DNA of 21,540 nt, from the IMG/VR virus record IMGVR_UViG_3300024354_000087, positions 1 through 21,540 of that record, one strand, 5' to 3'. The notes beneath the pieces were generated by a model that saw only the letters and a program-made list of their open reading frames with translations, did no database searches and was not told the origin of the DNA. Source of the DNA: a virus. Made by a program: the position numbers and the translations under genes. Of the stretch, positions 3,033 to 21,540 are shown piece after piece (the first letter of the stretch is position 1; the number at the start of each line of letters is the position of its first letter).

Positions 3033-3277
3033 AAAGTAACCACAACACCATCCGAAAAGTTTTGATAGAGCATCCGGATGGTTTGACATCACGACAAATT
3101 TCAGAGATGACTGGAATCAGTTATCGCTCAGTTAGGAAGTCACTTGAATCTGTATTTGGTGTCTATATTGATCGGTATATCACGGCAAGGTACAGGAATA
3201 ACTTGACAGCGGTGTGGGTTGTTGTCGACGTACCTGATAACTGCCCCAAGCCCGACCACATTAGGAACAAAAAATGA
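3029..3277 (+). CDS. Small winged-helix DNA-binding protein (82 aa)
   Basis: The product reads as a compact helix-turn-helix with a wing. Helix 1 is NTIRKVLIEHPDG, the HTH is TSRQISEMTGISYRSVRKSL, and hairpin strands follow with YIDRYITARY and LTAVWVVVDV. The TSRQISEMTG/SYRSVRKSL arrangement is typical of MarR/LexA-type winged helices, in which a degradation or operator-binding role follows the recognition helix. The gene starts in an ATGA overlap with the microprotein and overlaps the DNA polymerase start by four bases (3274-3277). It could control the polymerase operon or assist DNA binding; the target is unknown. Confidence 0.8.
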   Translation: MKSNHNTIRKVLIEHPDGLTSRQISEMTGISYRSVRKSLESVFGVYIDRYITARYRNNLTAVWVVVDVPDNCPKPDHIRNKK

Positions 3278-5124
3278 AATACATTACACTGGATTTTGAG
3301 ACCTACTACTCAAAAGAGTTTAGTCTGTCCAAGATGACAACCGAGGCGTACATACGTGACCCGCAGTTCGAGGTGATTGGCTTCTCGTACAAGATCAACA
3401 CTGAGCCTGCCAAGTGGGTGACTGGTTCCAATGGCGAGATCGCTATGGCACTGGAAGAGTTGGACATTCCAAACAGCTACTTGATCTGTCACAACATGGC
3501 GTTCGATGGAGCCATCCTTGCTTGGCGTTACAACATCATGCCCAAGTACTATTTAGATACGCTGTCCATGGCGCGACCTATCACAGGCTTGACTGTCGGT
3601 GGTTCACTCAAGGCATTGGCTGACAAGTATGACATCGGGCAAAAAGGCACAGAGGTAGTAAATGCGCTTGGTAAAAGACGCAGTAATTTTACCCCTGAGG
3701 ACCTTGCCAAGTACGGTGACTACTGCAACAACGATACAGAACTTACTTGGACTTTGTACAACATCCTGAAGAAAGACAACCCTCCCAAGGAACTGTATAT
3801 ACAAGACCTGATGATACGCATGTTCACTGACCCAGTGCTTGAGTTGGATAAGGATGTATTGATTGCTCACCTGAACAGTGTGCAAGACAAGAAAGCCAAA
3901 CTGATGGAGCGTATTGACCTGTCGATTGGTAGAGATGCACTCATGTCCAACCCACAGTTTGCTGAAGTGCTGAAGAAGTTAGGCGTTGAGCCGCCAGTCA
4001 AGACAAGCCTGCGCACTAATAAAGAAGCGTATGCGTTCAGTAAGACTGACTACGAGTTCAAGGCACTGCTTGAGCATCCCAACACTGCAGTACAAGCTGT
4101 CGTTGCGGCACGACTTGGAATTAAATCCACACTGGAAGAAACTAGAACCGAATCGTTTTTGGGTATCGCTGATCGTGGGGCACTGCCAATCCTCTTAAAC
4201 TACTGGGGTGCGCACACTGGTCGTGCATCGGGTGGTGACAAGATGAACTTGCAGAACCTGCCAAGGGGCGGTGCACTTAGACGTTCAATCACAGTACCTG
4301 AGAACCATGTACTTGTTGCAGTGGACTCAGCACAGATTGAAGCACGAGTTGTCGCGTGGCTGGCGGGCCAAGAAGACTTGCTTGTTGACTTCCGCAACAG
4401 CGTGGATATTTATTCCAAGTTTGCATCGATCGTGTATGGCAAGCCTGTCACCAAAGCAGACAAGGTTGAACGGTTTGTTGGTAAGACCTGCATCTTGGGC
4501 CTAGGCTACGGCATGGGACCTGATAAGTTCCAAGGTACATTGAAGATTGGTCAAGGTGGTATCTCAGTTGATATGGATGCAGGCGAAGCCAAGCAGACTG
4601 TGACGACATACCGAACCAAGTACGCCATGATTGCCGAGCTATGGAAGGATGCGCAGAAGGCACTGGACAAAATGGCACAGGGTTATGAGACAACATTCGG
4701 TGTTGGCATCGAGTTACGCTGTACACCTGAAGGCATCCACTTACCCAACAGCACAATGATTCGTTATCCTGAACTGAGTAAGTCCGGTGATGGATGCGAG
4801 TACAAAGGTCGCTATGGTCCTGTCAAGATATACGGTGGTAAGGTAGTTGAGAACGTAGTCCAAGCACTTGCCAGGATTGTTGTGTTCGATCAGATGGCGA
4901 AAATCGACATGGAGATGCGCAAGAACGACAACCCACTAGCCGACTGCCGATACAAAGTTGCTCTGACTGTGCACGATGAGGTGGTATGTGTAGTTCCACG
5001 AAGTGCCGCACAGTGGGCGCTTGAGTTTATGACGACCACAATGTCAGTGCCTCCGAAGTGGTGTGCCAACTTGCCAGTGTCGTGTGAAGGAGACATTGGA
5101 AATAATTATGCAGATGCCAAATAA
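3274..5124 (+). CDS. polA-like: Family A DNA polymerase with 3'-5' exonuclease domain
   Basis: This 616-aa protein replicates the phage genome. The N-terminal DnaQ-like exonuclease shows motif I DFET (Asp7, Glu9), motif II HNMAFD (His73 to Asp78) and motif III YCNND (Tyr150, Asp154), so proofreading should be intact. The polymerase domain has motif A DSAQIEARV (Asp351), motif B with Arg400, Lys404 and Tyr412 (RFVGK...GYG), and motif C VHDEV (His567, Asp568, Glu569). All key catalytic residues are present. There is no 5'-3' exonuclease domain. The residue aligned to E. coli Pol I Phe762 (Lys404 plus four) is Leu408. The start overlaps the wHTH gene and has an AGGA site. Confidence 0.97.
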   Translation: MKYITLDFETYYSKEFSLSKMTTEAYIRDPQFEVIGFSYKINTEPAKWVTGSNGEIAMALEELDIPNSYLICHNMAFDGAILAWRYNIMPKYYLDTLSMARPITGLTVGGSLKALADKYDIGQKGTEVVNALGKRRSNFTPEDLAKYGDYCNNDTELTWTLYNILKKDNPPKELYIQDLMIRMFTDPVLELDKDVLIAHLNSVQDKKAKLMERIDLSIGRDALMSNPQFAEVLKKLGVEPPVKTSLRTNKEAYAFSKTDYEFKALLEHPNTAVQAVVAARLGIKSTLEETRTESFLGIADRGALPILLNYWGAHTGRASGGDKMNLQNLPRGGALRRSITVPENHVLVAVDSAQIEARVVAWLAGQEDLLVDFRNSVDIYSKFASIVYGKPVTKADKVERFVGKTCILGLGYGMGPDKFQGTLKIGQGGISVDMDAGEAKQTVTTYRTKYAMIAELWKDAQKALDKMAQGYETTFGVGIELRCTPEGIHLPNSTMIRYPELSKSGDGCEYKGRYGPVKIYGGKVVENVVQALARIVVFDQMAKIDMEMRKNDNPLADCRYKVALTVHDEVVCVVPRSAAQWALEFMTTTMSVPPKWCANLPVSCEGDIGNNYADAK

Positions 5125-5201: not shown

Positions 5202-5855
5202 ATGAGCATACCCGCTTGGACATATAGTCAGCTTGAAAAGTTCGAGAACTGTCCTCGACAGTTTTACCACGTGCGTGTCAAACGAGACGTAGTAGAGCCT
5301 CCCACGGAAGCCACGCTGTGGGGTGGGCGGGTGCATGAAGCTATGGAATATCGTATCAAAGATGGTACGCCTTTGCCAGAGGGCATGACTCAGTGGGAAG
5401 GTTTGGCTACCAAGATATCCAACATGGCGGGTGAAAAGTTCTGTGAAGTTGAGATGGCACTGGATGAGAATTTCCAACCTGCTCCATGGGGTAACGCTTG
5501 GACTCGAGGTATCGCTGATTTACTTATCGTCAATGGTGACAAGGCAGTCAACCTTGATTACAAAACAGGCAAGCGTAAGCTGACTCATCAACTGATGCTG
5601 TATGCCGGATATACGTTTGCAATATACCCACAGGTCAATACTGTGGTGACTGGATTCGTGTGGATGCGTGACAAAAAGATCGACAAGGAAACGTTTACGC
5701 GGGACCAAGTGCCGATGATTTGGCAAACATTCATTCCGAAGGTGCGTAAGTTGGAATCGGCTTATGAGCGAGACGCTTGGCCTGCACGACCCTCAGGGTT
5801 ATGTAAGGGATGGTGTCCAGTTAAAACGTGTGAGTTCTACAAGGATAAGCAATGA
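5202..5855 (+). CDS. Cas4/RecB-like PD-(D/E)XK nuclease with Fe-S cysteines
   Basis: The 217-aa protein has the full layout of the RecB/Cas4/AddB nuclease family. These are an N-terminal CPRQF segment (Cys17), GGRVHEAM with His45, GIADLL with Asp106, LDYKTG with Asp119 and Lys121, and the QLMLYA helix (130-135). Three C-terminal cysteines (Cys201, Cys205, Cys210 in CKGWCPVKTC) complete a likely four-cysteine 4Fe-4S site with Cys17. Such enzymes degrade or resect DNA ends with metal ions; in phages they are linked to recombination or host DNA breakdown. No Cas1/Cas2 genes are nearby, so a CRISPR role is not supported. Its stop overlaps the next gene in an ATGA. Confidence 0.93.
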   Translation: MSIPAWTYSQLEKFENCPRQFYHVRVKRDVVEPPTEATLWGGRVHEAMEYRIKDGTPLPEGMTQWEGLATKISNMAGEKFCEVEMALDENFQPAPWGNAWTRGIADLLIVNGDKAVNLDYKTGKRKLTHQLMLYAGYTFAIYPQVNTVVTGFVWMRDKKIDKETFTRDQVPMIWQTFIPKVRKLESAYERDAWPARPSGLCKGWCPVKTCEFYKDKQ

Positions 5856-6169
5856 CATTACTAATTCAAACAAGCGAATACGATGATGCAATTATATGCC
5901 CAGTATGCGGTGGAACCAATCTGCACCACGCAGATGTATCTGTCTTTGACCGCAACGAAGACGCAGTGAAAACCACAGTAACAAAAGTTGCTGAGAGCGG
6001 GGAAATTACTGTTCGAACTGAAGACTCATTAGAAAGTCTCAATCCTAGCCGACGTAGACACGGATTGTTAATTCAGTTTTGGTGTGAAAGCAATTGCAAA
6101 GTACCTAGTTTGGCTGTATACCAACACAAAGGCAGTACTTATATGGAGTGGGGCGGGGGTGGAAAATGA
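5852..6169 (+). CDS. Putative zinc-ribbon protein (105 aa)
   Basis: Two cysteine pairs are arranged as a likely zinc site: CPVC (Cys16, Cys19) near the N-terminus and CESNC (Cys78, Cys82) about 60 residues later. Between them is a Ser/Thr/Glu-rich region with a possible beta-hairpin. A 4-Cys ribbon with a long insert is known in phage DNA-binding or RNA polymerase-binding proteins, but I cannot name this family. Both ends are coupled: ATGA with the Fe-S nuclease upstream and ATGA with the VRR-NUC gene downstream. That places it between two nucleases, so a partner or regulator role for them is plausible but inferred. Confidence 0.75.
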   Translation: MTLLIQTSEYDDAIICPVCGGTNLHHADVSVFDRNEDAVKTTVTKVAESGEITVRTEDSLESLNPSRRRHGLLIQFWCESNCKVPSLAVYQHKGSTYMEWGGGGK

Positions 6170-6483
6170 CACCTGAAGGCCGCGTCAAAGAGGCAGTAAA
6201 GAAAGAACTAAAGAAACGCAACATTTGGTTCTTCATGCCCATGCAAAACGGTATGGGTGTAGTAGGCATACCTGACTTTATCTGCTGCGATCGTGGACAG
6301 TTTATTGGTGTAGAGACTAAGGCCCCGGGGAAGCGGGGATGTACAACTGCAAACCAAGAACGTACATTAGAAGCTATCTTTGAGCATGGTGGATGGTCTA
6401 TCGTGGTCGATGATGTTCAACAACTTATTGATTTTTTGGAGGTGAAGAATGAACAAAGGCGGACCAACAAAAGCGGCTTATGA
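6166..6483 (+). CDS. VRR-NUC domain nuclease
   Basis: The 105-aa product is a stand-alone VRR-NUC domain of the PD-(D/E)XK superfamily. Helix 1 (EGRVKEAVKKELKKRNI) precedes the catalytic core GIPDFICC (Asp37), GVETK (Glu50, Lys52) and Gln64 in TANQERTL. Stand-alone phage VRR-NUC proteins are thought to cut branched or flap structures and often sit beside SNF2-type helicases, as here. I use ATG 6166, which overlaps the upstream stop as ATGA, rather than a GTG at 6148. The last 35 bases overlap the next gene. Confidence 0.92.
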   Translation: MTPEGRVKEAVKKELKKRNIWFFMPMQNGMGVVGIPDFICCDRGQFIGVETKAPGKRGCTTANQERTLEAIFEHGGWSIVVDDVQQLIDFLEVKNEQRRTNKSGL

Positions 6484-6712: not shown

Positions 6713-8281
6713 ATGCTAGTCAGACAAGATAAGAGGGCGCTGATCCTCAAACTAAAACATCCGACAAGAGTAACCACACCGATACCAACAGCTAAGTTGG
6801 TAACGCACAAAGGGCAGACACTAGTGGCTGTCCCACACAGACCTGATGAAGTTAAGGTGCTGAGAAACTTGGGGTTCAATGCCCCTGACCCGATGAGCTA
6901 CTACTATAAGTGGCCCGGACGTTTCAAACCTTTTGCTGCACAGATCGAGACTGCAAACTTTTTATCCATGAATGATCGTGCGTTCTGTTTGAACAGCATG
7001 GGCTTGGGTAAAACAGTTACGTCACTATGGGCGTATGACTATATGCGAGATGCCAAGTTGGTCAACAAAGCATTGGTTATCTGTCCACTGTCTACGATGG
7101 AGCGTACTTGGGCTGACGAAGTCTTCAAGACATTCCCACACTTGGATGCCACAGTTGTGTATGGCACACGAGAGCGTCGCAAGAAATTATTGGCGCAACC
7201 CTCTGATATTTACATTATCAATACCGATGGTATTAAGACGATTCAAGACGAGTTAGCCAACAGACCCGACATCAATTTAATTATTGTTGACGAGATTGCG
7301 ATGTTCCGTAATGCCAGTACAGACCGCTGGAAAATCTTGAACAGCATATGTAATAAGCAGACGCACAGACGCATATGGGCTCTGACTGGTGCACCCACAC
7401 CACACGAACCTACAGATGCATGGGCTCAATGCCGTATCGTATGTCCAACCAACCCCGATGTGCCTAAGTACTTTGGTCAGTTCCGTGATTCGGTCATGAA
7501 GCAGATCACACAGTTCAAATGGGTGCCTCGCCACGATGCAGTTGAGACAGTCAAGAAGGTGATGCAACCTGCTGTACGTTTTGCACTTGACGACTGTATT
7601 GACTTGCCTGAGCAAACATTTATCAACCGCGATGTTGAGATGACTGATGAGCAGAAGGTGGCATACAAGGGTATGCTTGAGAAGCTGATAACTGAATACG
7701 AAGGCGGTGAGGTCCTTGCAGTCAACGAGGCAGTTAAAGCCAACAAGCTTGTGCAGATTGCTTGCGGAGTTGCCTATGGCAAAGACGGTGAGTACATCAA
7801 CATACCAAGTAAGCCTAGGCTTGACGTACTGCGTGAATTGATCGAGGGTTCAGAAGGCAAAGTCATTGTGTTCGTACCGCTGACTGGTGTGCTTGAACAC
7901 TTGGTCGAGGAACTGTCTAAAGAGTGGTCAGTTGCGGCTGTCCATGGTGGCGTTGGCAAGGCCGAGCGAGACAGGATATTTGGTGAATTCCAAAACGGCA
8001 CTGGCCTGCGAGTACTGGTGGCAAACCCTGCCACGATGTCTCATGGGCTGACATTAACTGCGGCAACCAATATTGTTTGGTACGCACCCATCCACAGCAA
8101 CGATGTGTATGAACAAGCCTGCGCACGAGTGCGAAGACCTGGGCAGACTAGAACGACAGTGATTGCTCACATTGCTTGTTCAGATATCGAAAGACGCATT
8201 TACACCCGCTTACGCACCAAGCAGAAACTGCAAGGTGCACTACTTGAAATCATGAAAGGAATTGAAAATGATGAGCCCTGA
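6713..8281 (+). CDS. SNF2/DEAD-like superfamily 2 helicase
   Basis: This 522-aa protein has the two RecA-like lobes of SF2 helicases. Lobe 1 includes motif I NSMGLGKT (Lys100, Thr101), motif Ia VICPLSTMERTW, motif II VDEIAMF (Asp193, Glu194) and motif III LTGAP (about 224-228). Lobe 2 includes VIVFVPL, the VHGGVGKAERD segment and motif VI QACARVRRPGQ (Gln468 to Gln478). The RRPGQ ending and DEIA motif II fit the SNF2 branch used by phages. It should translocate on double-stranded DNA using ATP. It follows the HNH stop with no gap (TAAATG). Pairing with VRR-NUC suggests joint processing of forks or junctions. Confidence 0.95.
   Translation: MLVRQDKRALILKLKHPTRVTTPIPTAKLVTHKGQTLVAVPHRPDEVKVLRNLGFNAPDPMSYYYKWPGRFKPFAAQIETANFLSMNDRAFCLNSMGLGKTVTSLWAYDYMRDAKLVNKALVICPLSTMERTWADEVFKTFPHLDATVVYGTRERRKKLLAQPSDIYIINTDGIKTIQDELANRPDINLIIVDEIAMFRNASTDRWKILNSICNKQTHRRIWALTGAPTPHEPTDAWAQCRIVCPTNPDVPKYFGQFRDSVMKQITQFKWVPRHDAVETVKKVMQPAVRFALDDCIDLPEQTFINRDVEMTDEQKVAYKGMLEKLITEYEGGEVLAVNEAVKANKLVQIACGVAYGKDGEYINIPSKPRLDVLRELIEGSEGKVIVFVPLTGVLEHLVEELSKEWSVAAVHGGVGKAERDRIFGEFQNGTGLRVLVANPATMSHGLTLTAATNIVWYAPIHSNDVYEQACARVRRPGQTRTTVIAHIACSDIERRIYTRLRTKQKLQGALLEIMKGIENDEP
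8254..8275 (+). repeat. Left copy of a 22-bp imperfect direct repeat
   Basis: GAAAGGAATTGAA at 8254-8266, followed four bases later by ATGAG, recurs at 8954-8975 with 19 of 22 positions identical. The copies are exactly 700 bases apart. This copy covers the 3' end of the helicase gene and the ribosome site and start of the following gene. Confidence 0.7.
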
Positions 8282-10656: not shown

Positions 10657-13620
10657 ATGGACACTCTCAAGTTCCTGCAAACAATCCTTCCTGAGGAGGG
10701 GTTTAAGTTCGTAGGGTTGGGACGTGTTGGACGCGATGGTATTGCCCACAAAGCCTATGAGTCTCTTGAACTCATGGCGAAAGCCATCGAATCTTATGAT
10801 GCACAAAGCAACCTGATTGTCTACCACGCATGCTGTTCCTATAAGGCGGCAAGCTACGAAGCTGAGGTCAATGGCGTAACCAAAACCAAATACCGAGGCG
10901 CACAGAACTGGCATAAAGCCAAGTCATTTTGGATTGATATCGACTGCGGTGAAGACAAAGCGGCTGAAGGTAAAGGCTATCTGAATAAAACAGAAGCCGC
11001 CAAAGCCATCCTTGGTTTCTGTAAGACACACCAGTTTCCTAACCCCATGCTTGTTGATTCAGGCGGTGGACTACATTGCTACTGGCCTTTGACTAAACCC
11101 ATTGGCCCTAACAGTTGGCGAACCATTGCCAACGAATTCAAAGCCGCACTCAATGCCGCTGGACTGTTGGTTGACCCAACCCGAACTGCTGACTTGTCTT
11201 CTATCCTACGACCTGTAGGTTCACATAATCGCAAAGCCGGACGTGAAGTCCGTGAAGTCAAGGTCAAAACTCAACCCACATTTGTTGAGCCACAAGAATT
11301 TGCAGCCACAGTCTCACGCGCAGTGAAGGCCCTCCAAGCTCATGTACCAAAGCAATCATCAGCGCCTGGTTTAAATGATGACTTGATCACACCATACGAT
11401 GGGCCACAGTACGAGACTTCTGCTCGGTTGATTGCTGACCACTGCCAACAGGTAAGAATCATGCGGGATACCAAGGGCGATGTTGAATACCACACATGGT
11501 TTAACGTCATTGGGATTATTAGACACTGTGTTGAAGGCATTGACCTTGCGCATGAGTGGAGTGAAAACCGTTCTGCTAAACATTCTAATGTTGACGTAAC
11601 CACACGATACGAGACATGGAACGCAGGTTCCACTACCTGTGACAGATTTGAAACTGATAATCCTGCAGGCTGTGTTGGTTGCCCTCACCGTGGGAAAATC
11701 AATACCCCCATGGTTTTAGGTAGGGTTATCCCTGAGCCTGTTGAACAGGTCATGGAAGTTGTGGATGATGACGAAGTCGTAGAGACCATTGTGCCCCCAC
11801 TGCCTGAGAACTATGAGTTTCAGAATAACCGGATGATTCGTTTCATCAAGGACAAGGATGGTGTAAACCAGCCCTTTACATTCTGCTACCAGTTGTTCTA
11901 TCCTATTCAGCGTATTCGTAAGGCTGACGGTGCGTATGCGTTTACCATTCGTATGCACTTGCCGGACAAGCGAATCAGGGAATTTGAGGTGGACACAGCA
12001 TCCATTGCTTCATCGGCTGATTTACTCAAGGCCATGTCCAAGTATGAACTTATGCCTTCAAATAATAAGGATGCAACGATGCATTTGACTGCGTATATTC
12101 GTGACTCAATTACCAAGCTGATGACCGAGCAGAGGGAGGTGGACACACTGACTTCATTTGGTTGGCGTGACAACATGTCAGGGTTTTTACTAGGTGACAG
12201 GCTGTATCACACTGATGGTTCAGTTCGCCATGTGTATGTAGGTGGCGGGGCTTCTGCGTATAAGAATGTTTATCCTGCGCCTCGTGGGTCACTTAAAGCG
12301 TATTCCGACGCTGTTAATTTTGTCTACAACCGTGAGAGCAGTGAAGCCGCTCAGTATGTTTTCTGCAATGTCTACGGTTCAATCCTGACGCCATTTGGTG
12401 AAGACAGCTACAACGGTGTATTGGTCGCTGTTAACTCAGGCCACTCGGGTAAAGGTAAAACGACTGTATGGCGTGCCGCGCTGTATGGCTTTGCTGATGC
12501 CAACCAGTTGATCGTGGGTGGTAAAGAAGGGGTGACGCAGAAAGCTCGGTGGAATACCATTGGTACACACAAAAACATCCCAATCGTGTTGGACGAATTG
12601 ACTGACTTGGATGCGGCTGAAGTTAGTAGCATGGCCTATACCGTCTCCCAAGGCGCAGATCGTGTGCGTCTTACATCATCAGGTGGCAAGGTCAGTGTAG
12701 CTGAAAGGCATACATGGAAGTCTGTAGTAGGTATAACTGCTAACGAAGACTTGCACTCTAAGTTGGCCGCACATAATGCAAATACTCAGGCAGAAGGTGT
12801 GCGCATGATCGGCATCAACTTCGAGACTTATGGTGTACCTGTGTTCAAAAACGCTGTGGAAGTTTCTGCCGCTGTTGATCAGATGCGGGACAACTGGGGT
12901 CATGCAGGCGATGTGTTTTTAAAGTACGTGGTTACACACCAAGAGGAAGTTTCCAAGCTGTGGTCTAAGATTGAGTCTGAAATGTCTGTTGCCCTGCCAG
13001 AGAGTGAATACAGGTTTTGGCGTAGCCATGCCACTGCAACACTGGCAGCAGCTCGCATCCTGATTGACTTGAAGATTGTGGAATTTGACTACGACATGCT
13101 TGTTGCTTTTACCAAGCGACTGATGGTAGATATGAGTCAAGCGGTTACCACTGGCAACATGACAACCCCTGAGGACGCTCTGAACCGCATGATCCGCGAC
13201 TTGTCCAACCGCATCATAGTGACAGCAGAGTACCGTGACATTCGTACAGACGCTCGTGGCCCTGAAGATTCAATCTCAAGAATCGTTGGTGCACCCGCAG
13301 GTCGACGCATTATTGGTAATCAGACGACCAAGGGCAAAGACAAGTACATCGGTAAGCTGTTCTTAGCCAAAAAAGAATTTGGCGAGTGGTGTGCCAAGAA
13401 CCGGATGGAGCCCAAAGAACTTGTCAAATGCGCTGTCAAGCACGGTTGGATTATTCCTTGGCAGGAAAAGTTCAATATTGGTAGGGGGACAGCCCACTCG
13501 ACTGGTAGCTGTACTTGCTATGCGTTTGACTTCTCAGCCATGGAAGGTGCTGTAGAAAATACCAGTGGTCCAGTAACACTTGTACAAACTGAGGAAAGTG
13601 CAGTATCATCTGCTCACTAA
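10657..13620 (+). CDS. Primase-helicase: AEP-type primase fused to DUF927-like helicase
   Basis: The 987-aa protein joins primer synthesis to DNA unwinding. The N-terminal archaeo-eukaryotic primase domain shows FWIDIDCG (Asp94, Asp96), SGGGLHCYWP (His140) and RPVGSHN (Arg185 to Asn191). A cysteine cluster at 328-344 (Cys328, Cys339, Cys342, His344 in CVGCPH) follows and may bind zinc. The C-terminal DUF927-like ATPase has Walker A GHSGKGKTT (595-603) and Walker B IVLDEL (Asp646, Glu647). This domain pairing occurs in phages and plasmids that carry their own replisome. A GGGG site precedes ATG 10657. It is the last gene of the plus block, 49 bases before the terminator stem. Confidence 0.93.
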   Translation: MDTLKFLQTILPEEGFKFVGLGRVGRDGIAHKAYESLELMAKAIESYDAQSNLIVYHACCSYKAASYEAEVNGVTKTKYRGAQNWHKAKSFWIDIDCGEDKAAEGKGYLNKTEAAKAILGFCKTHQFPNPMLVDSGGGLHCYWPLTKPIGPNSWRTIANEFKAALNAAGLLVDPTRTADLSSILRPVGSHNRKAGREVREVKVKTQPTFVEPQEFAATVSRAVKALQAHVPKQSSAPGLNDDLITPYDGPQYETSARLIADHCQQVRIMRDTKGDVEYHTWFNVIGIIRHCVEGIDLAHEWSENRSAKHSNVDVTTRYETWNAGSTTCDRFETDNPAGCVGCPHRGKINTPMVLGRVIPEPVEQVMEVVDDDEVVETIVPPLPENYEFQNNRMIRFIKDKDGVNQPFTFCYQLFYPIQRIRKADGAYAFTIRMHLPDKRIREFEVDTASIASSADLLKAMSKYELMPSNNKDATMHLTAYIRDSITKLMTEQREVDTLTSFGWRDNMSGFLLGDRLYHTDGSVRHVYVGGGASAYKNVYPAPRGSLKAYSDAVNFVYNRESSEAAQYVFCNVYGSILTPFGEDSYNGVLVAVNSGHSGKGKTTVWRAALYGFADANQLIVGGKEGVTQKARWNTIGTHKNIPIVLDELTDLDAAEVSSMAYTVSQGADRVRLTSSGGKVSVAERHTWKSVVGITANEDLHSKLAAHNANTQAEGVRMIGINFETYGVPVFKNAVEVSAAVDQMRDNWGHAGDVFLKYVVTHQEEVSKLWSKIESEMSVALPESEYRFWRSHATATLAAARILIDLKIVEFDYDMLVAFTKRLMVDMSQAVTTGNMTTPEDALNRMIRDLSNRIIVTAEYRDIRTDARGPEDSISRIVGAPAGRRIIGNQTTKGKDKYIGKLFLAKKEFGEWCAKNRMEPKELVKCAVKHGWIIPWQEKFNIGRGTAHSTGSCTCYAFDFSAMEGAVENTSGPVTLVQTEESAVSSAH

Positions 13621-13668
13621 TTGAGGTTGCCCTTTGTTAGTGTGTTTTGCTCTCCTAAGTTGGATTTA

Positions 13669-13699
13669 CCCCCTAGCCTAAAAACTAGGGGGTTTTTTT
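13669..13699 (+). terminator. Strong intrinsic terminator closing the plus-strand block
   Basis: CCCCCTAG (13669-13676) and CTAGGGGG (13685-13692) form a perfect eight-base-pair stem with an eight-base loop, followed by seven T residues (13693-13699). It lies 48 bases after the primase-helicase stop. In the minus direction the stem is followed by TAAATCC rather than a T-run, so it should act mainly on plus-strand transcripts. The minus-strand Endo VII-like gene runs into the stem: its TAG stop is within the 3' arm. Confidence 0.93.
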
Positions 13700-14068
13700 A
13701 TCACCAAGTTCTTCTAGATACTGCGCGGCAAATTTAAGCAATTCAGGATCATCTCGAAAATGCCCTAAACCTCTATTGCAGTGATTGCAAAGCATACCTC
13801 GAACCTTACCAGTTACGTGGTCATGGTCTACAACCAATGGTTCATTGCTCCCACAAATCACGCATTCTGTTACTGTAGCTTTTATTTCTGCCAATTGTGC
13901 ATCAGAGATAACAGCGCGAAACTTCCCACGACAGTTAGCGTTTCTATAAATAGACCTACATGCCCGACACCAGCTGTCTAGCCCATTCCGCTTTTTATTA
14001 TGCGGTGGAAAAAACTCCAGTGTACTAGGCTTACTCAGTTTACATTTAGTGCAGGTTAGCAGTTCCAT
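13685..14068 (-). CDS. Endonuclease VII-type HNH nuclease
   Basis: The 127-aa product has the recombination endonuclease VII (His-Me finger) core. VVDHDHVTGKVRGMLC gives Asp81, His82, Asp83 and His84, and CNHCNRGLGHFRDD gives Cys94, Cys97 and Asn98. CVIC (Cys69, Cys72) supplies the other half of the structural zinc site. An N-terminal four-cysteine segment (CTKC, then WCRAC; Cys6, Cys9, Cys34, Cys37) forms a second zinc unit, common in phage members. T4 Endo VII resolves branched DNA before packaging; free-standing relatives may act that way or as homing nucleases. It overlaps the DUF6321-like gene by 13 bases, and its stop lies in the terminator stem. Confidence 0.9.
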   Translation of the reverse strand: MELLTCTKCKLSKPSTLEFFPPHNKKRNGLDSWCRACRSIYRNANCRGKFRAVISDAQLAEIKATVTECVICGSNEPLVVDHDHVTGKVRGMLCNHCNRGLGHFRDDPELLKFAAQYLEELGDKKTP

Positions 14069-14316
14069 GCTTTCAATGATAACGCTTTTCTAGTTGGCTT
14101 ACCTTTTTCATCCTTCATAGGGCCGGGCATGCCTGACATTCGAGCACAAAAAGATGCACGGCGATTAGCGTCTTTCTCAGTCTTGGGATGAGGAGCAGGC
14201 GGTTTCAGTCCGGGCTTGCCGGGGTTTGCTTTGTTGTAAGATGCACGACCTTTGGCGTTTAATCCGCCTTCAGGGTTCTTACCTTCTTTGCGTTGCCATG
14301 CTGGTGACTTAGCCAT
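14056..14316 (-). CDS. DUF6321-like small phage protein (86 aa)
   Basis: I start at the ATG whose first base is 14316, four bases after an AGGAAT site, instead of a TTG at 14352 inside the giant gene. The product begins MAKSPAWQRKEGKNPEGGLN and continues with AKGRASYNKANPG. It ends with RRASFCARMSGMPGPMKDEK, then GKPTRKALSLKAWNC. This is the pattern I associate with the DUF6321 family, short Gly/Lys-rich proteins in phages near structural genes. No function is known. It begins ten bases after the giant gene's stop and overlaps the Endo VII start by 13 bases. Confidence 0.82.
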   Translation of the reverse strand: MAKSPAWQRKEGKNPEGGLNAKGRASYNKANPGKPGLKPPAPHPKTEKDANRRASFCARMSGMPGPMKDEKGKPTRKALSLKAWNC

Positions 14317-14326
14317 ACGTATTCCT

Positions 14327-17300
14327 TTATTGGTTAACTTGTGACTCAACAAACCTACGATTCGATTTAGTGGTTTCTACACCACCAACAACACCACGTT
14401 CACGCTTACGCGCTTCGGCTGGTGCACGGAACAACTCAGACATTCCCTGACGCTTGTATCCGTTCCTAACTCTCGACTCTTGCAACTTCTGCCAGTCATC
14501 TCGTGCTTCAGCCATTGCTGCTGAGTCACTTGCTCGAGAGCTTTCAACATAACTTGCTTTAATATCTTTGGCACGTTCTGCATAGAACTTGTCAAACTCG
14601 GCAACCACTTTCTGAGTGAATTGTCTGTCTGTAACGGTCGAAGTGGGGAGACCAACCAGTTGGAAACCAGCATCAATCATGCTGACTTCATCAGGACTCA
14701 TCACCAAATCCCCATTGCGCATCGTAATCCCTTGGGTTGGGAAACGATATGCTTTCATCACATTGGCTACGCCATTAGGCATCGCCATCTCTAGGCCCTT
14801 GTAGTAATTGCCTTTGGAAATCAAATCCAATGCATCTGCAAACTTCAGCCCCATACTTGCGGCTGGGCCCATCATACCCACCAACATCTTCTCAGCACCG
14901 GAGCGGGAAGCCAAGTCAGGTTCAACGAATGGACCGAATGGAGACGCAACGTTTTCCATGGACAGCTTCTTGCCCAAAGACTCCAAACCAAAATAAGCAG
15001 GCACACCGCGAAGCAACAGGTCAGCGGCAGGGCCGTCACCTATCATGCGACGTAGTTTGTACTCGTAATCATCGGGTTCATCGGGGTCACCAAACGCTTT
15101 CGATGCAAGCCAAGCAATCTGTGAAACAAACGGCACGCCCAAAGCACCGCCAAGAACTGCCATGTGCGCAACAATGAATTTCAATGAAGCAAACGCTACA
15201 GCTCTTTCTTCTTTACTTGCGCCACGGAATGAGTTGTTAATCAACTTAATCAACATGGACAACTGAATAATTTGGAAGCGTTTGAATTGCCCCAATAAAG
15301 AAGCTGTGTTTCCTTGCAGTATGCGAGGCGCACTTGTGGAAGTGTATGAACCGTGAGTATTGTCAATAACTTCAGCAGCGTACTTGGTAGCAGCAGCCGT
15401 ATCACCGTTCTTATAACGCTCAAGGTATCCACGATAAGCAGCTACGGCAGCGGCAGCACGATTGATTGACTCAATACGTGTATTGACACCTTTGAGTTTA
15501 GCCATGGCTACCTCGAAGGGACCGCGTTCTTCTGTGCGTGCCTTGATGTCTGTCTCAATACCAATGTCGATCTTACCCATGCCAACCAATGTGTTGAGCA
15601 TATTGCGCACATCAGAGGGAGCTTGGTTAAAGTCAATGTGGCCTTCAATCCCAATGTCTTTGGTCAATGGGGCAATATCGCTGTAGGCACGCTTAAGCGC
15701 ACGACCTGTACGGAAGTAACCAAGACGTCCTGCCATGTATGGCTGAGAAAGCACCATGGTCTGCACCATCTGCTGGAGATAGAACGCTGGGTTAGTGGAC
15801 AAAGTCCACAGACTTGTCATGCGTGTTAAGGCAGTTACCAAGTCGCTGACTGGTTTGTAATCCATACTGAGCGCATTGCGGGCATACAACTCGTTGTACA
15901 GGGGGCGTGCTTCTTTCAAATTCTTCTGAGCTTCGACACGCATTGACTCTAATGAATCAGAGATGGCATCGTTACTTGCCATGGAAGCCAAGAAGTGTGC
16001 ATCGGCACGGCCACTGGTAGCCAAGTTGCGCATCATGTTCTTAGAAGCACCAGCCACATTCTTACGTTGACGGGCACTGGACTCAGCCACAACCATTAGA
16101 TACAGATCACCAATAGCTTTGGTCAAAGCAGGATTAGTATCCTCACCACCGCGCTCAGCCATGCCGCGCAAGCGAGACAGACCATACATTAAATCAGCAC
16201 CACCTGCGTAAGACGCATGAGCTTCTTTTTCCGCAGCGTCTTCGGGTTGCACATCATATTGACCAGTTGCGCCCAGTTGAGCAGCAATTTCATCCGCTTC
16301 AGCTTGTGTCTCAGCAAATTCCACAACGTAATGGTTGGGGTCTGAGATGTGGTCTTGCAACCAGTTTTTGGCCTGCTGTGGGTCACCAATGATTGAGTTA
16401 TCTTTGGTGCGGCTTTCTGTTCCTGAAGCAGCTTTTTCGTATGCAATAAACTCAGGTGACTTGGCGACCACTACATAGTTTCCGTAGCGTCCAAGGTATG
16501 CGTAAGGATTACCGACCTGTACTTGTTGCAAGCTGGCGATGCGTTTGAGCGCACTTGCCTTTTCTTTGGCAATCTTATCCAACAGATCAGCATCATTGGC
16601 TGCAGCTTTTTCGCGTGACTCATATTCACGGTCGACAGCATCTCTAGCCGCTTGCTTCTTCATTTGCAATGCTTGGTATCCATGCTCAAATACATCTTTA
16701 ATGAGCTGAGCAGCCGCAGGACTTTGCGCTTGAATTTTATTAAACCGTTCTTCAAAGTCTGGGTCGACCTCAAACAACTTAGTACCCACTTGATGTTCAC
16801 CGGGGTAGTAGCCCCACTTCTTCTCACGAGTGGAATCAAAAATAAATTCATTGACGCTACCAGAGCCTTCGCCTTTTAGATTGGCAGGCAGTCTGTCATA
16901 AGCAGTCAGAATTTTGTTGATGCGGTTTTCAAACTGAACACGTGTGGCATACCGAGCGTACTGTGCATCCAAATACTTGGTTGCCGATGGCATAAACTTC
17001 TTAGCCATACTGACAATGTCTTCAGTCATTGCCGCAGAATATAAACCCTTCTTAGCTGCGCTAAGTAGGTTGGTCACAACATTACGAACTGGCTTTCGTA
17101 ATACCCGTGGTAGTGCGCTGATTACAGTGTCTGTTGTAGATGGTGCGTTAACACCGAACTTCATAGCCATACCAGTTTTATCTACCAACAATGTAGCATT
17201 GCTGTCTAATTCTAGTTTGGGAAGTGTAGTAGCCAGTTTATCTACTGGTACAGTAAGTCGACCTTCCACCATACGGGCTTCTTGTTCACCTGCAATTCCA

Positions 17301-20300
17301 TAATACAAGTAACTTCGCATCTGCTCTTCTGTAATTTTGTACAGTTCTAGAGCTTGCTGTGCCTTTAAAACATAAGTGTCTACCGCCCTGTCTAAATTCA
17401 TTTGCAGCCCTGCAGTTTTTACAGGATCAGTGTTTAAGACTAACTGCAATTGAGCTTCGTTGACCAGATCATCATACCGCGCTATGTGAGAGAGTATTTT
17501 TTCAATAGCAAGCGCTGCTTTTTGCTGACCCGTCTGTCGCAAAATAGCTTCAAACTTAACGAAAGAAACTATAGAGAGTGGATCAGCAATATGGTTTGGT
17601 GACCCGCCGGGATCAAAACCTTCAATCTGTTGAATAGCGTGTTGGATTTCATGTAGTAATGTAGGCATGTCATCTGGATACTGCCCAGACATTGTTATAC
17701 GCCCATTGAACGGATCAAAACTGGCATTTTTTGGTGGCATATCTGCATCAAAAACTAAAGTATAGTCTTTGAGCTGAGGGTACGCTTTAAATAAAGCTGG
17801 GTGCTCAAGAACATCCTGCAGCTCGTAGTCGTGGTCAATTTCGACTCTGTCGTTTTTGAATGGTTTAAATTTGGCATTGGTGTCGGGAATTTCATATTTC
17901 CATTTCCCATCTATGCCTTTAAACCAGCCGGTTTCAACCCACATTTTGTCTTCTGTGGCACCTGCAGCAAACATCAATTTGGCTTTAACCAATTGAGCTT
18001 TAAGCTTATCAGTTTCAGCAGGGTCTAAATTATAGAATGAACGTTGCCCAGCAATGCCAAACTGTGTGCGATTTGCAGTAGACATGTTGCGCTGTGCGTC
18101 TGACATTTCAATTTTTGCAGCACCATAAGCCATGTTAACCACGTCTTGTGCAGTCAATTTATCGGTTCTAAAACCAAGCTTACGTGCAATGGCTTGAATG
18201 GCTGACCACAAAGTGCGAAACCAAGTAGCTAACGGGCCAGTTAACTTTCCTGATGCAGCTGGATCAATACCAGCCAGCATGGATTCTTCAACAAAATATG
18301 CCAACAATTCTGCAGGTTTATCTTGAGTTTCAGTTTGAGCAGCATCTACTCGTGCTTGAGCTTTCTTGGCTATACGGGACTCAAGTGAATTGTCTTTGGA
18401 TGCAACCCAACGGGCTAACTGCGCAGTAAGTTGATCGTAAACAACTTTGGGCAGTAATTTTTCTAAACCCAAATGGGCTCCGACTTCGTGCATAAATTTA
18501 GCACGACCTTCGCCTTTACTGATGCGGTTGGCAATCAGATACGCAGTGCCGTTTGCTGTAACACCATAAGCACCTTTATTGCCAATAGCTTTGGCAAGGT
18601 TCTGTAGGTCTGCTGAATTTGAATTTGCTAAGTCTTCTAAGCTGCCAACAATAACCAGTTTGCGACCAAGGATGTCTGCACGAATAAAGTCTTTAATGTC
18701 TTTGACCAGTTCAGCAGCAGTGTATGGATTAGTGGCTACACCGTCTTTACCAAACTTGGGGTTTACCGCTTCAGCAGTTCCATCAGTGCCTGTTGTCTCA
18801 GGCTTTTCACTGGCCAATACTGTGCCAGCAGGTTGAGGCTTCTCACCGACAATTTTGACAGCAGCAGCAAGGTTAGCTTGTCCACGGTGGACGAGATCAT
18901 CCCAACGAGTTTTTTCAGATTTTGCAAGAAGTTCATATGCGGGTAACTCCGGTGCTAATTGTGATAATGCGGCCCACTCTTCAGCGGGAGTTTTTACTTC
19001 TTCGGCTTTGGCTTCTTGCTTGGGCTCGACTTTGACTTCAGCTTTTCCGGCAGATTTTTTGGGTTTGGCGTTTCCTTTGCCCACCTTTTTGCCACCTCCG
19101 GCTGGTTCGCGAACATTTCCCTCATCTGCGCTTTCGACTTGAACGGCATTCTCATCTCCTTCTTCGGTTACAGCAGCTTCGCCTTTGGCTCTGCGTTTCT
19201 CTTGGCCTTTGGCATAGTCTGCCCACAGCTTCTGAAGCTGTTCTGCTTTGGCAGCACGACGTGGGTCTTTAGGAGGCATTGCTTCCAACTCAGCCTGTAG
19301 TTTTTCAACTTTGGCAAAGAACGCAGCACCTTCACTATCTACAGCACCTTGGCTACCACCAGCGGTGGACACCATGCCCATGGTCTGACCCTCAGCGTTT
19401 TCTTTACCGCCAAGTTCTTCTTGGAGCTTGGCTCCAGGTTTGCCTTCTTGTTCTCCAGCTTCAAGTTCTTCTGCTAATGATGCGGCAGATTGCTCTTCAC
19501 CTTCGTAACGAGTATTATATAGACCAGCCAACTCACCTTGACCAATGCCATCGGGGAATTCAGGTGCTCTATATGCAGCAGCGGCTTCGACAAAACGTGC
19601 GGCAAACGCAGGGTCTACTACTTGGAATTCGCCATCGACCAACTTAACGCCCATGCGTTCCAGTTGTTTTTCAACAGCGTCAACTTTAAGTCCTGTGTAC
19701 GCTGCAATATCTGCATGACGAAACTGCTCAAGCAAAGCCAAGCGAAGGATTTCTGCACGCTTTTCAGCGGGTACAGTATTAGTCCGGTTTTGGATTGGGG
19801 CCAAAACACGTAGCAGCAAATCAGAGATTAGCTGGACGCGACGCTCGCTTGAGATGTGGCTAAGGTCGGTTGAGTAGAAGCTGATGCGGGGGTCGTATGT
19901 GCGTGGGCCATTCTGTACAGATTGTTGATCCACGTTGGGTGTACCGGCTTGCTGGGATTGACCGGATGTTTCCCCGCCACCCAAAGCGCTTTGGCTGGCT
20001 TGTTCACTTGTAGCTCCAGTTACTTGCGACGGCGCGTTACCATTGCCAACATTGGCATCTGCACTGGTGCCAGTCCGTATTCCTTCTCCTGATAACTGTC
20101 CAGTTTGGAGACCAAGCGATCCTTCAGGGACACTTCCTGATTGGACGGATTGAACTCCGCTGGGTTGTACAGTCCCATCTGCTGTTGTAGTTGTTTCTCC
20201 TGTTCCGCCTTCGACTGGAACTGTTCCCAGCCCGGTAGTTGTTTGCAGTGGCAGTTTTCCATCTTTAGCTCCTTTTTCCGCTTTAGCGGTTTGTGCTGCG

Positions 20301-21540
20301 ATAAATCCATCTGTATCTTGACCAGTAATGGCTTCGTAGATGGCGTTGAGTTGCTCCAGTTGATTACCTTTGGTAGTCGTCGAGAGTTTGTTAAGAATCT
20401 GTACGGCCTCATCCAGTGATTGCACATGGTCAATCTGGAACTTGGTCATGGTTTTACCCAAGGCGGCTATGGCTTTTTCAGCGGAACCGCGTGGGTTTGT
20501 GGCATTAAAACTGAAGCTGACCAATGGGCTTGGCTTTTCAGGTGTTGCAAACGCTTTGTTTGCTTGCACGATTGCTTTAGCAATCTGCTGCACATGAGGG
20601 GGCAGTGTATTGAATACATCTGCAAACCGGTTACCAAACGGTGCAATACGTGGGCCAGTAATTGTCTGACCAAAAATGCTTACCGTATCAGGTGAGTACT
20701 CGGATGCCAGCACACCAAGAACATCGTCACGCTTGGCTTGTTGCTGTTGAGCAATTTCAGCTTGTTGATTTTGTGCTGCAGCAGCTTGAGACTGCTGAGC
20801 AATATCAGTTGTACCACCTGTGACGACAGGCGGTGTCATGTTTGCCACTTGGGCTTTGAGTGCTTTGTACTCTTGCTGTTCTTCAGGTGTAAAGAAACGA
20901 CCTTCAGTGGCTGGAATTTTTAATGGTTGACCATCGGGGCCTTCCACGGTGCGTGCAGGTGTGCCTCTACCGATTGCTTCCAACTCAGCCAAACGTGCCA
21001 TGGGGTCTGGGTGGTTTGCTGGCGTAATAGGGGGCGTAACGGGTGGGGCTACATTGGCAGTAGGTGTACCACTAACTTCTGGTTGATTAAAGGCTTGCTG
21101 AATATCGTTAGTCGCAGGAGTGCTTCTACGCCAACCTCCAAGGCCACCACCCATCAAACCGCCAAGGGTTGCACCACCAATAAACGATTCTTTATATCGC
21201 TCAAGCGCTTCAGGATCAGTAAGTGTCGCGTTGGGGTCAACGGCCATACGGCCTGCTTGATTCAATACTTCTTGCCCAGTTTCAGAAATACCTTCTTTCA
21301 GTCCAACACCAGTGGCTGTAGCAGTAGTACGAGCCGCAGCACCCAAGAGACCGCCCGGACGATCAAGTAAATTGATTGTGTTCTTAAATGCACTTCCGCG
21401 CATTAACGCAGTGTCAACACCTAAAGCATTTAAACCTGCATAAGGAATAGCCAATGCCCCAGCAGCCAATAAATCTGTCTTGCCACTTTGCTCACGTTGG
21501 TTACTCAGAATGTCGCCAACAGCAGATGGATATGATGCAG
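14327..21540 (-). CDS. Giant polyvalent virion protein with zincin-like domains, N-terminus outside the window
   Basis: The frame is open to the right edge, so the start lies beyond it; 2403 residues are visible (numbered from the codon at 21538). Gly-rich hydrophobic segments (LAAGALAIPYAGLNAL; GGATLGGLMGGGLGGW) come first, then long Gln/Ala/Gly- and Lys/Glu-rich linkers to about residue 850. A first zincin-like motif HEVGAH is at 1017-1022. A TGWFKGIDGKWKYEI segment leads to HEIQH (1296-1300) with GEQEAR (1417-1422), a likely HExxH metalloprotease. YLGRYG (1681-1686) matches a degenerate PLxRFG motif. The C-terminal part (NPAFYLQQMVQ at 1916, GQFKRFQ at about 2083) resembles large polyvalent protein C-termini. 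It is probably packaged and ejected with the DNA. Confidence 0.88.
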   Translation of the reverse strand, partial: ASYPSAVGDILSNQREQSGKTDLLAAGALAIPYAGLNALGVDTALMRGSAFKNTINLLDRPGGLLGAAARTTATATGVGLKEGISETGQEVLNQAGRMAVDPNATLTDPEALERYKESFIGGATLGGLMGGGLGGWRRSTPATNDIQQAFNQPEVSGTPTANVAPPVTPPITPANHPDPMARLAELEAIGRGTPARTVEGPDGQPLKIPATEGRFFTPEEQQEYKALKAQVANMTPPVVTGGTTDIAQQSQAAAAQNQQAEIAQQQQAKRDDVLGVLASEYSPDTVSIFGQTITGPRIAPFGNRFADVFNTLPPHVQQIAKAIVQANKAFATPEKPSPLVSFSFNATNPRGSAEKAIAALGKTMTKFQIDHVQSLDEAVQILNKLSTTTKGNQLEQLNAIYEAITGQDTDGFIAAQTAKAEKGAKDGKLPLQTTTGLGTVPVEGGTGETTTTADGTVQPSGVQSVQSGSVPEGSLGLQTGQLSGEGIRTGTSADANVGNGNAPSQVTGATSEQASQSALGGGETSGQSQQAGTPNVDQQSVQNGPRTYDPRISFYSTDLSHISSERRVQLISDLLLRVLAPIQNRTNTVPAEKRAEILRLALLEQFRHADIAAYTGLKVDAVEKQLERMGVKLVDGEFQVVDPAFAARFVEAAAAYRAPEFPDGIGQGELAGLYNTRYEGEEQSAASLAEELEAGEQEGKPGAKLQEELGGKENAEGQTMGMVSTAGGSQGAVDSEGAAFFAKVEKLQAELEAMPPKDPRRAAKAEQLQKLWADYAKGQEKRRAKGEAAVTEEGDENAVQVESADEGNVREPAGGGKKVGKGNAKPKKSAGKAEVKVEPKQEAKAEEVKTPAEEWAALSQLAPELPAYELLAKSEKTRWDDLVHRGQANLAAAVKIVGEKPQPAGTVLASEKPETTGTDGTAEAVNPKFGKDGVATNPYTAAELVKDIKDFIRADILGRKLVIVGSLEDLANSNSADLQNLAKAIGNKGAYGVTANGTAYLIANRISKGEGRAKFMHEVGAHLGLEKLLPKVVYDQLTAQLARWVASKDNSLESRIAKKAQARVDAAQTETQDKPAELLAYFVEESMLAGIDPAASGKLTGPLATWFRTLWSAIQAIARKLGFRTDKLTAQDVVNMAYGAAKIEMSDAQRNMSTANRTQFGIAGQRSFYNLDPAETDKLKAQLVKAKLMFAAGATEDKMWVETGWFKGIDGKWKYEIPDTNAKFKPFKNDRVEIDHDYELQDVLEHPALFKAYPQLKDYTLVFDADMPPKNASFDPFNGRITMSGQYPDDMPTLLHEIQHAIQQIEGFDPGGSPNHIADPLSIVSFVKFEAILRQTGQQKAALAIEKILSHIARYDDLVNEAQLQLVLNTDPVKTAGLQMNLDRAVDTYVLKAQQALELYKITEEQMRSYLYYGIAGEQEARMVEGRLTVPVDKLATTLPKLELDSNATLLVDKTGMAMKFGVNAPSTTDTVISALPRVLRKPVRNVVTNLLSAAKKGLYSAAMTEDIVSMAKKFMPSATKYLDAQYARYATRVQFENRINKILTAYDRLPANLKGEGSGSVNEFIFDSTREKKWGYYPGEHQVGTKLFEVDPDFEERFNKIQAQSPAAAQLIKDVFEHGYQALQMKKQAARDAVDREYESREKAAANDADLLDKIAKEKASALKRIASLQQVQVGNPYAYLGRYGNYVVVAKSPEFIAYEKAASGTESRTKDNSIIGDPQQAKNWLQDHISDPNHYVVEFAETQAEADEIAAQLGATGQYDVQPEDAAEKEAHASYAGGADLMYGLSRLRGMAERGGEDTNPALTKAIGDLYLMVVAESSARQRKNVAGASKNMMRNLATSGRADAHFLASMASNDAISDSLESMRVEAQKNLKEARPLYNELYARNALSMDYKPVSDLVTALTRMTSLWTLSTNPAFYLQQMVQTMVLSQPYMAGRLGYFRTGRALKRAYSDIAPLTKDIGIEGHIDFNQAPSDVRNMLNTLVGMGKIDIGIETDIKARTEERGPFEVAMAKLKGVNTRIESINRAAAAVAAYRGYLERYKNGDTAAATKYAAEVIDNTHGSYTSTSAPRILQGNTASLLGQFKRFQIIQLSMLIKLINNSFRGASKEERAVAFASLKFIVAHMAVLGGALGVPFVSQIAWLASKAFGDPDEPDDYEYKLRRMIGDGPAADLLLRGVPAYFGLESLGKKLSMENVASPFGPFVEPDLASRSGAEKMLVGMMGPAASMGLKFADALDLISKGNYYKGLEMAMPNGVANVMKAYRFPTQGITMRNGDLVMSPDEVSMIDAGFQLVGLPTSTVTDRQFTQKVVAEFDKFYAERAKDIKASYVESSRASDSAAMAEARDDWQKLQESRVRNGYKRQGMSELFRAPAEARKRERGVVGGVETTKSNRRFVESQVNQ

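Follow-up and report, generated by a model that had tools for sequence, protein, structure and literature searches.

Whether a single residue of a DNA polymerase can reveal the lifestyle of a phage is the question raised by the stretch of viral DNA analysed here (21,540 nucleotides of the IMG/VR record IMGVR_UViG_3300024354_000087, in the following termed the window). It carries a polA gene with leucine at the position of E. coli Pol I residue 762, and residue 762 serves to read phage lifestyle from metagenomes. A link between this residue and lifestyle has been published, and the association of Leu762 with slower or temperate phages, from which the initial annotation of the window concluded that this phage may be temperate or slow, exists in the literature as stated there (PMC6302109, PMC9069017).

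Identity of the polymerase and its gene neighbourhood

The polA reading frame is complete and matches the Pfam family DNA_pol_A (PF00476) with 112.7 bits against a cut-off of 34.3. In addition, the exonuclease domain PF01612 scores over its cut-off, and the 3′-5′ exonuclease is intact (Table 1). The residues of motif B reported in the initial annotation (R400, K404, L408, Y412, and G413) were read exactly so in the translation, and its assignment of column 762 was confirmed by a MAFFT alignment with E. coli MG1655 Pol I and T7 gp5, each taken from its own record. In this alignment, R400, K404, L408, and Y412 correspond to R754, K758, F762, and Y766 of E. coli, and L408 to Y526 of T7, while the catalytic residues D351, D568, and K404 fall on D705, D882, and K758. 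An AlphaFold model (mean pLDDT 88) places L408 within helix 397-412, the O helix, and its best Foldseek match is the Klenow structure 1kfs_A (E 1.4e-21, TM 0.72), which indicates the Pol I polymerase fold. A search of the PDB by sequence gave no entry closely matching the Leu762 subfamily. Most likely, the gene encodes the replicative polymerase of its phage, whose genome, judged from relatives of 51-61 kb, would measure roughly 60 kb.

Table 1. Features of the window discussed in the text (residue equivalents refer to E. coli Pol I unless stated otherwise).
Feature	Position	Strand	Basis or remark
polA, family A DNA polymerase, 616 aa	3274..5124	+	3′-5′ exonuclease and polymerase domain, without 5′ nuclease domain
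Exonuclease motif I, D7-F-E9	3292..3300	+	D7 and E9 invariant
Exonuclease motif II region, H73-NMAF-D78	3490..3507	+	alignment
Exonuclease motif III, Y150-D154	3721..3735	+	both residues invariant
Motif A Asp351 (D705)	4324..4326	+	invariant in alignment
Tyr380 (His734; T7 His506), always Tyr when 762 is Leu	4411..4413	+	
Motif B (O helix) R400-G413, RFVGKTCILGLGYG, including Gly403 (757) and Gly411 (765)	4471..4512	+	
Leu408 (F762; T7 Y526)	4495..4497	+	alignment
Motif C HDE, residues 567-569 (881-883)	4972..4980	+	alignment
RecB-family PD-(D/E)XK exonuclease	5202..5855	+	PF12705, phrog_69
VRR-NUC-type endonuclease	6148..6483	+	phrog_93; syntenic with annotated VRR-NUC of RHph_TM3_14A
SNF2-family helicase	6713..8281	+	PF00176, phrog_62
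DUF927 primase-helicase, left edge of integrase slot	10657..13620	+	PF06048, phrog_8841
Endonuclease VII gene, at the junction that holds the integrase in a prophage relative	13685..14068	-	PF02945, phrog_2633
98-aa protein without assigned function, same junction	14056..14352	-	phrog_4689; conserved in relatives
Giant 2380-aa large polyvalent DarB-like protein, right slot edge	14327..21469	-	PF18838, phrog_10089; homologue in prophage

The genes next to polA (RecB-family nuclease, VRR-NUC, SNF2, and DUF927) and the absence of ribonucleotide reductase, for which none of 39 related records gave a match over the cut-off, fit the published profile of the Leu762 Group I. For PolA of this virioplankton group, RecB-like and SNF2 neighbours without ribonucleotide reductase have been described (Nasko 2018, PMC6302109; the Leu clades of Keown 2022, PMC9069017). 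The likeness is one of residue and neighbours. The RecB-like gene of the window differs in that it encodes a nuclease of 217 aa without a helicase domain. A glutaredoxin gene is located at 2707-2940, although ribonucleotide reductase was not detected in the group, and the region 143-838 shows a weak match, under the curated cut-off, to Nmad5, a nucleotide-modification-associated domain.

Among isolated phages, the Rhizobium phage RHph_TM3_14A, a complete circular genome of 60.9 kb, has the same gene order, namely polA, RecB exonuclease, VRR-NUC, SNF2, primase-helicase, and the giant gene on the opposite strand. Its PolA is 38% identical to that of the window and differs by Phe at the position of Tyr766. 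The region 30610-33693 of its record (MN988472.1), annotated as a putative integrase, is homologous to the window's DUF927 primase-helicase and gave no match to PF00589. The Pseudomonas phage KPP25 (Kochitakasuvirus) shares Leu762, Tyr734, Gly757, Gly765, and the lack of an integrase with the window but shows only 37% identity and another helicase arrangement; its nearest neighbours are prophages that carry an integrase, for instance the one in Uliginosibacterium.

Leu762 is fixed in a clade of temperate and lytic phages

A scan of IMG/VR yielded 80 PolA relatives with identities of 51-100%; among them are a 41.5-kb contig whose PolA is 100% identical to that of the window and a 49-kb contig with 94% identity. 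Together with KPP25, RHph_TM3_14A, Rollin, and phiA008, 83 relatives could be read at column 762, and since all 83 have leucine there, Leu408 is not a chance variant. In the polA trees, built as the initial annotation had proposed, the window lies inside a Leu762 clade (SH-aLRT 99-100%) apart from the Phe/Tyr762 phages, so that the grouping with the latter, which would have spoken against its view, did not appear. That the polymerase belongs to a large, already known Leu762 subfamily of phage family A polymerases is hence supported.

The clade comprises two main branches. Branch B contains the window, its IMG/VR relatives, and the isolates KPP25, RHph_TM3_14A, Rollin, and phiA008. None of these four isolates gave a tyrosine integrase. 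Tyrosine integrases were detected in six Leu762 isolates, all belonging to branch A, the temperate members of which are phiFL4A, QT1, Jacinda, Stiles, Javan385, and the Microcystis phage Mae-Yong1326-1. The same branch includes K1ind3, wksl3, YSD1, BcepNY3, 83-24, BU2-2, and SJC16 without integrase, several of which are generally known as lytic. The Jersey- and Chi-like phages in the sample, reputedly lytic as well, likewise gave no tyrosine integrase. The Leu762 subfamily holds both temperate and lytic phages.

All Leu762 enzymes other than that of the Enterococcus phage VD13 group together in one clade. The first tree hinted at an independent origin of Leu762 in VD13; this was dropped, since the data do not reject a common clade with VD13 (AU p 0.70).

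Other genes occupy the window at the site of a sister prophage's integrase

The most informative relative is a prophage of about 61.5 kb on a 304-kb contig of a Burkholderiaceae metagenome-assembled genome (CALXQR010000002.1). Its PolA is 56% identical to that of the window in the best segment and sister to the window's group in the tree (99%). The prophage is bounded by ferrochelatase and queC and spans from a primase-helicase (47.3 kb) to an integrase (107.7-108.9 kb), a full-length tyrosine type with arm, central, and catalytic domains. Only 12-bp matches were found as candidate attL/attR sites, about what chance gives, and no att site is therefore claimed. The replication module and the giant gene are common to prophage and window; in contrast to the window, the prophage is chromosomal, has its own tyrosine integrase, and carries an intein in motif B.

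In the circularised prophage, the integrase is flanked by the primase-helicase and the giant structural gene. At the same junction of the window (13,620-14,327), the endonuclease VII gene and the 98-aa gene are located, without an integrase. The junction measures 349-2629 bp in 27 relatives, below 1.1 kb in 23 of them, and holds an integrase in none. Because the slot that contains the integrase in the sister prophage is occupied by an endonuclease VII gene here, the phage most likely cannot integrate.

Genes for lysogeny were also searched for. The initial annotation had stated that integrase and repressor are absent from the window, and neither PF00589 nor the CI/Cro-type repressor domain HTH_3 had a match in this 21.5-kb fragment. 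An integrase or a repressor may be located elsewhere in the genome, outside the window. The search of the remaining genome for integrase, repressor, and ParA/B that had been suggested was run on the relatives. None of 35 relatives of 25-60 kb gave a match to PF00589. They are not independent records and cover on average 72% of a 61.5-kb genome (16 exceed 50 kb); if each carried an integrase at some random site in such a genome, it would very unlikely be missed in all 35. The partition-type ParA (PF13614) had no match over the cut-off in 57 records. HTH_3 was likewise not found in the long relatives of the window's group. It was detected in K1ind3, wksl3, BcepNY3, and G1, which are generally known as lytic; since it occurs in such phages and is missing from the window's own group, this domain was rejected as a sign of lysogeny and given no weight.

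A phage could also be temperate without a tyrosine integrase, by means of a serine recombinase, transposition, or a plasmid-like prophage. Two records are in line with such a lifestyle: no tyrosine integrase turned up within 60 kb of a related PolA in a Vreelandella chromosome, and a 16.8-kb Candidimonas scaffold with another related PolA likewise lacks one. Against it stand the searches for the resolvase PF00239 and for ParA of the type PF13614, the former also without a match in any of the 57 records, long relatives included, and a single-sequence scan of 84,980 bacterial genomes, in which no close relative appeared as a chromosomal copy; we regard it as very improbable. The negative single-sequence scan alone would mislead, as a profile scan of bacterial genomes detected 35 matches with related PolA where the former gave none. 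Since motif B served as the pattern of the profile scan, Leu762 in these 35 matches is partly given by construction.

Two of the bacterial records deserve separate mention. The prophage of Uliginosibacterium gangwonense has a KPP25-like replication module (36-41% identity) with an integrase about 9.5 kb after polA and represents a temperate cousin of the KPP25 group. The Candidimonas nitroreducens scaffold, from an isolate genome, encodes a PolA of 47-48% identity and a primase-helicase and may be a prophage fragment, a plasmid-like phage, or contamination.

Leu762 does not tell the lifestyle

The rival reading, which follows Schmidt 2014 and Nasko 2018 and is that of the initial annotation, takes Leu762 as the sign of a temperate or pseudo-temperate phage whose polymerase is slow and accurate. 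Besides the published association, it can draw on the matching helicase-containing neighbourhood without ribonucleotide reductase, on the integrases of the six isolates, and on prophages with related PolA in genomes of Azoarcus, Uliginosibacterium, Parendozoicomonas, Pasteurella, and Aggregatibacter and in a Planctomycetaceae bin, in which an integrase lies 8.5-12 kb from polA. As the clade includes many temperate phages, a weak statistical link of Leu762 to lysogeny may exist. For the phage studied here, however, this reading is improbable: the window and its 35 long relatives lack a tyrosine integrase, the slot is taken by other genes in the window and is free of an integrase in 27 relatives, and the sample contains many lytic Leu762 phages. 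Furthermore, the lytic KPP25 group has Leu762, and so, according to the literature, do virulent B. elkanii phages (PMC12632393). The step from Leu762 to 'temperate or slow' in the initial annotation is not supported.

The sister prophage serves as a natural control on the inference of lifestyle. Integrases are present or absent between sister lineages while Leu762 remains unchanged, and the residue consequently does not show the lifestyle. We consider it probable that Leu762 is a fixed, inherited mark of the lineage and not a lifestyle switch, and that the phage is most likely unable to integrate. A contig should not be labelled temperate on the basis of Leu762 alone, since the residue stays constant while integrases come and go.

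Leu762 is coupled with Tyr734

Fold, exonuclease, and catalytic residues are common to the window's enzyme, E. coli Pol I, and T7 gp5, but where the latter two have Phe/Tyr762, His734, Ala757, Ile/Leu765, Asn845, and Trp924, the window has Leu762, Tyr734, Gly757, Gly765, Glu845, and Tyr924. A comparison of 141 Leu762 with 92 Phe/Tyr762 enzymes, a post hoc scan of the columns of the polymerase domain, revealed clade-fixed differences at 711, 734, 757, 764, 765, 845, 850, 853, 924, and two more positions. The coupling with residue 734 was without exception in 415 sequences, a set including two scans whose search patterns avoided positions 734, 757, 762, and 765: Tyr734 in all 244 Leu762 enzymes and His734 in all 167 Phe/Tyr762 enzymes. 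The same holds after reduction at 80% identity (125 and 95 enzymes, respectively). Leu762 is almost always accompanied by Gly757, Gly765, and Glu845, the exceptions at 757 and 765 being VD13, BcepNY3, Rollin, and YSD1.

In Taq polymerase, the residues H639, F667, K663, and R659, equivalent to 734, 762, 758, and 754, contact the incoming nucleotide (PMC6345897). In T7, the exchange Y526L alone leaves 3% of the activity (97% lost) and gives no phage, and the authors of that study asked which compensatory changes the natural Leu enzymes have (PMC13228545). Judged from the sequence comparison, Tyr734 is a candidate for the main compensating residue. Leu762 would then be part of a different nucleotide pocket, together with Tyr734 and usually Gly757, Gly765, Glu845, Arg853, and Tyr924. 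Tyr734, located on the neighbouring helix, might take over the aromatic contact to the incoming dNTP that is lost at 762 or compensate for its loss, and Gly757 and Gly765 may allow repacking.

As there are only one or two evolutionary origins of Leu762, compensation is not separable from shared descent. Tyr734, Gly757, Gly765, and Glu845 could simply reflect common descent and be functionally unconnected with Leu762; every member may have inherited the set, given that all Leu762 enzymes but VD13 form one clade and that VD13 may belong to it. This explanation is a serious though doubtful one. Against it, residues 734 and 762 both contact the nucleotide in Taq, and Y526L by itself inactivates the T7 polymerase. 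Moreover, Tyr734 is found in every Leu762 enzyme, including proteins of only about 25% identity, and is kept in VD13, BcepNY3, and Rollin despite missing parts of the Gly/Glu set; VD13 has the Tyr734-Leu762 pair but not the rest.

A bolder reading, nearly as probable as not, is that Leu762 polymerases possess a distinct, co-adapted pocket, with Tyr734 standing in for the contact of His734 as well as for the ring lost at 762. If true, the pair would explain why the exchange of Tyr for Leu alone inactivates the T7 polymerase while Leu762 phages thrive, and Leu762 phages need not be slow or temperate. Full-text literature searches gave no published link of His734 to Tyr with Leu762, which does not prove its absence. 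We regard the pair as a new observation, which offers a specific two-residue test of the compensation left open by the T7 study (PMC13228545).

Further variation in motif B

Two other changes were observed around the O helix. Arg754, a dNTP contact kept in nearly all sampled family A polymerases, is replaced by Gly in 16 close relatives, which also have a basic insertion (DRKK...) just ahead of the O helix. The tree requires three such changes, each accompanied by Lys749; unlike these relatives, the window keeps Arg400 at this position. In addition, inteins or intein-like inserts are located within motif B of Leu762 polA genes, between K758 and L762. They were found in the Burkholderiaceae prophage, among others, and also in Jersey-like phages.
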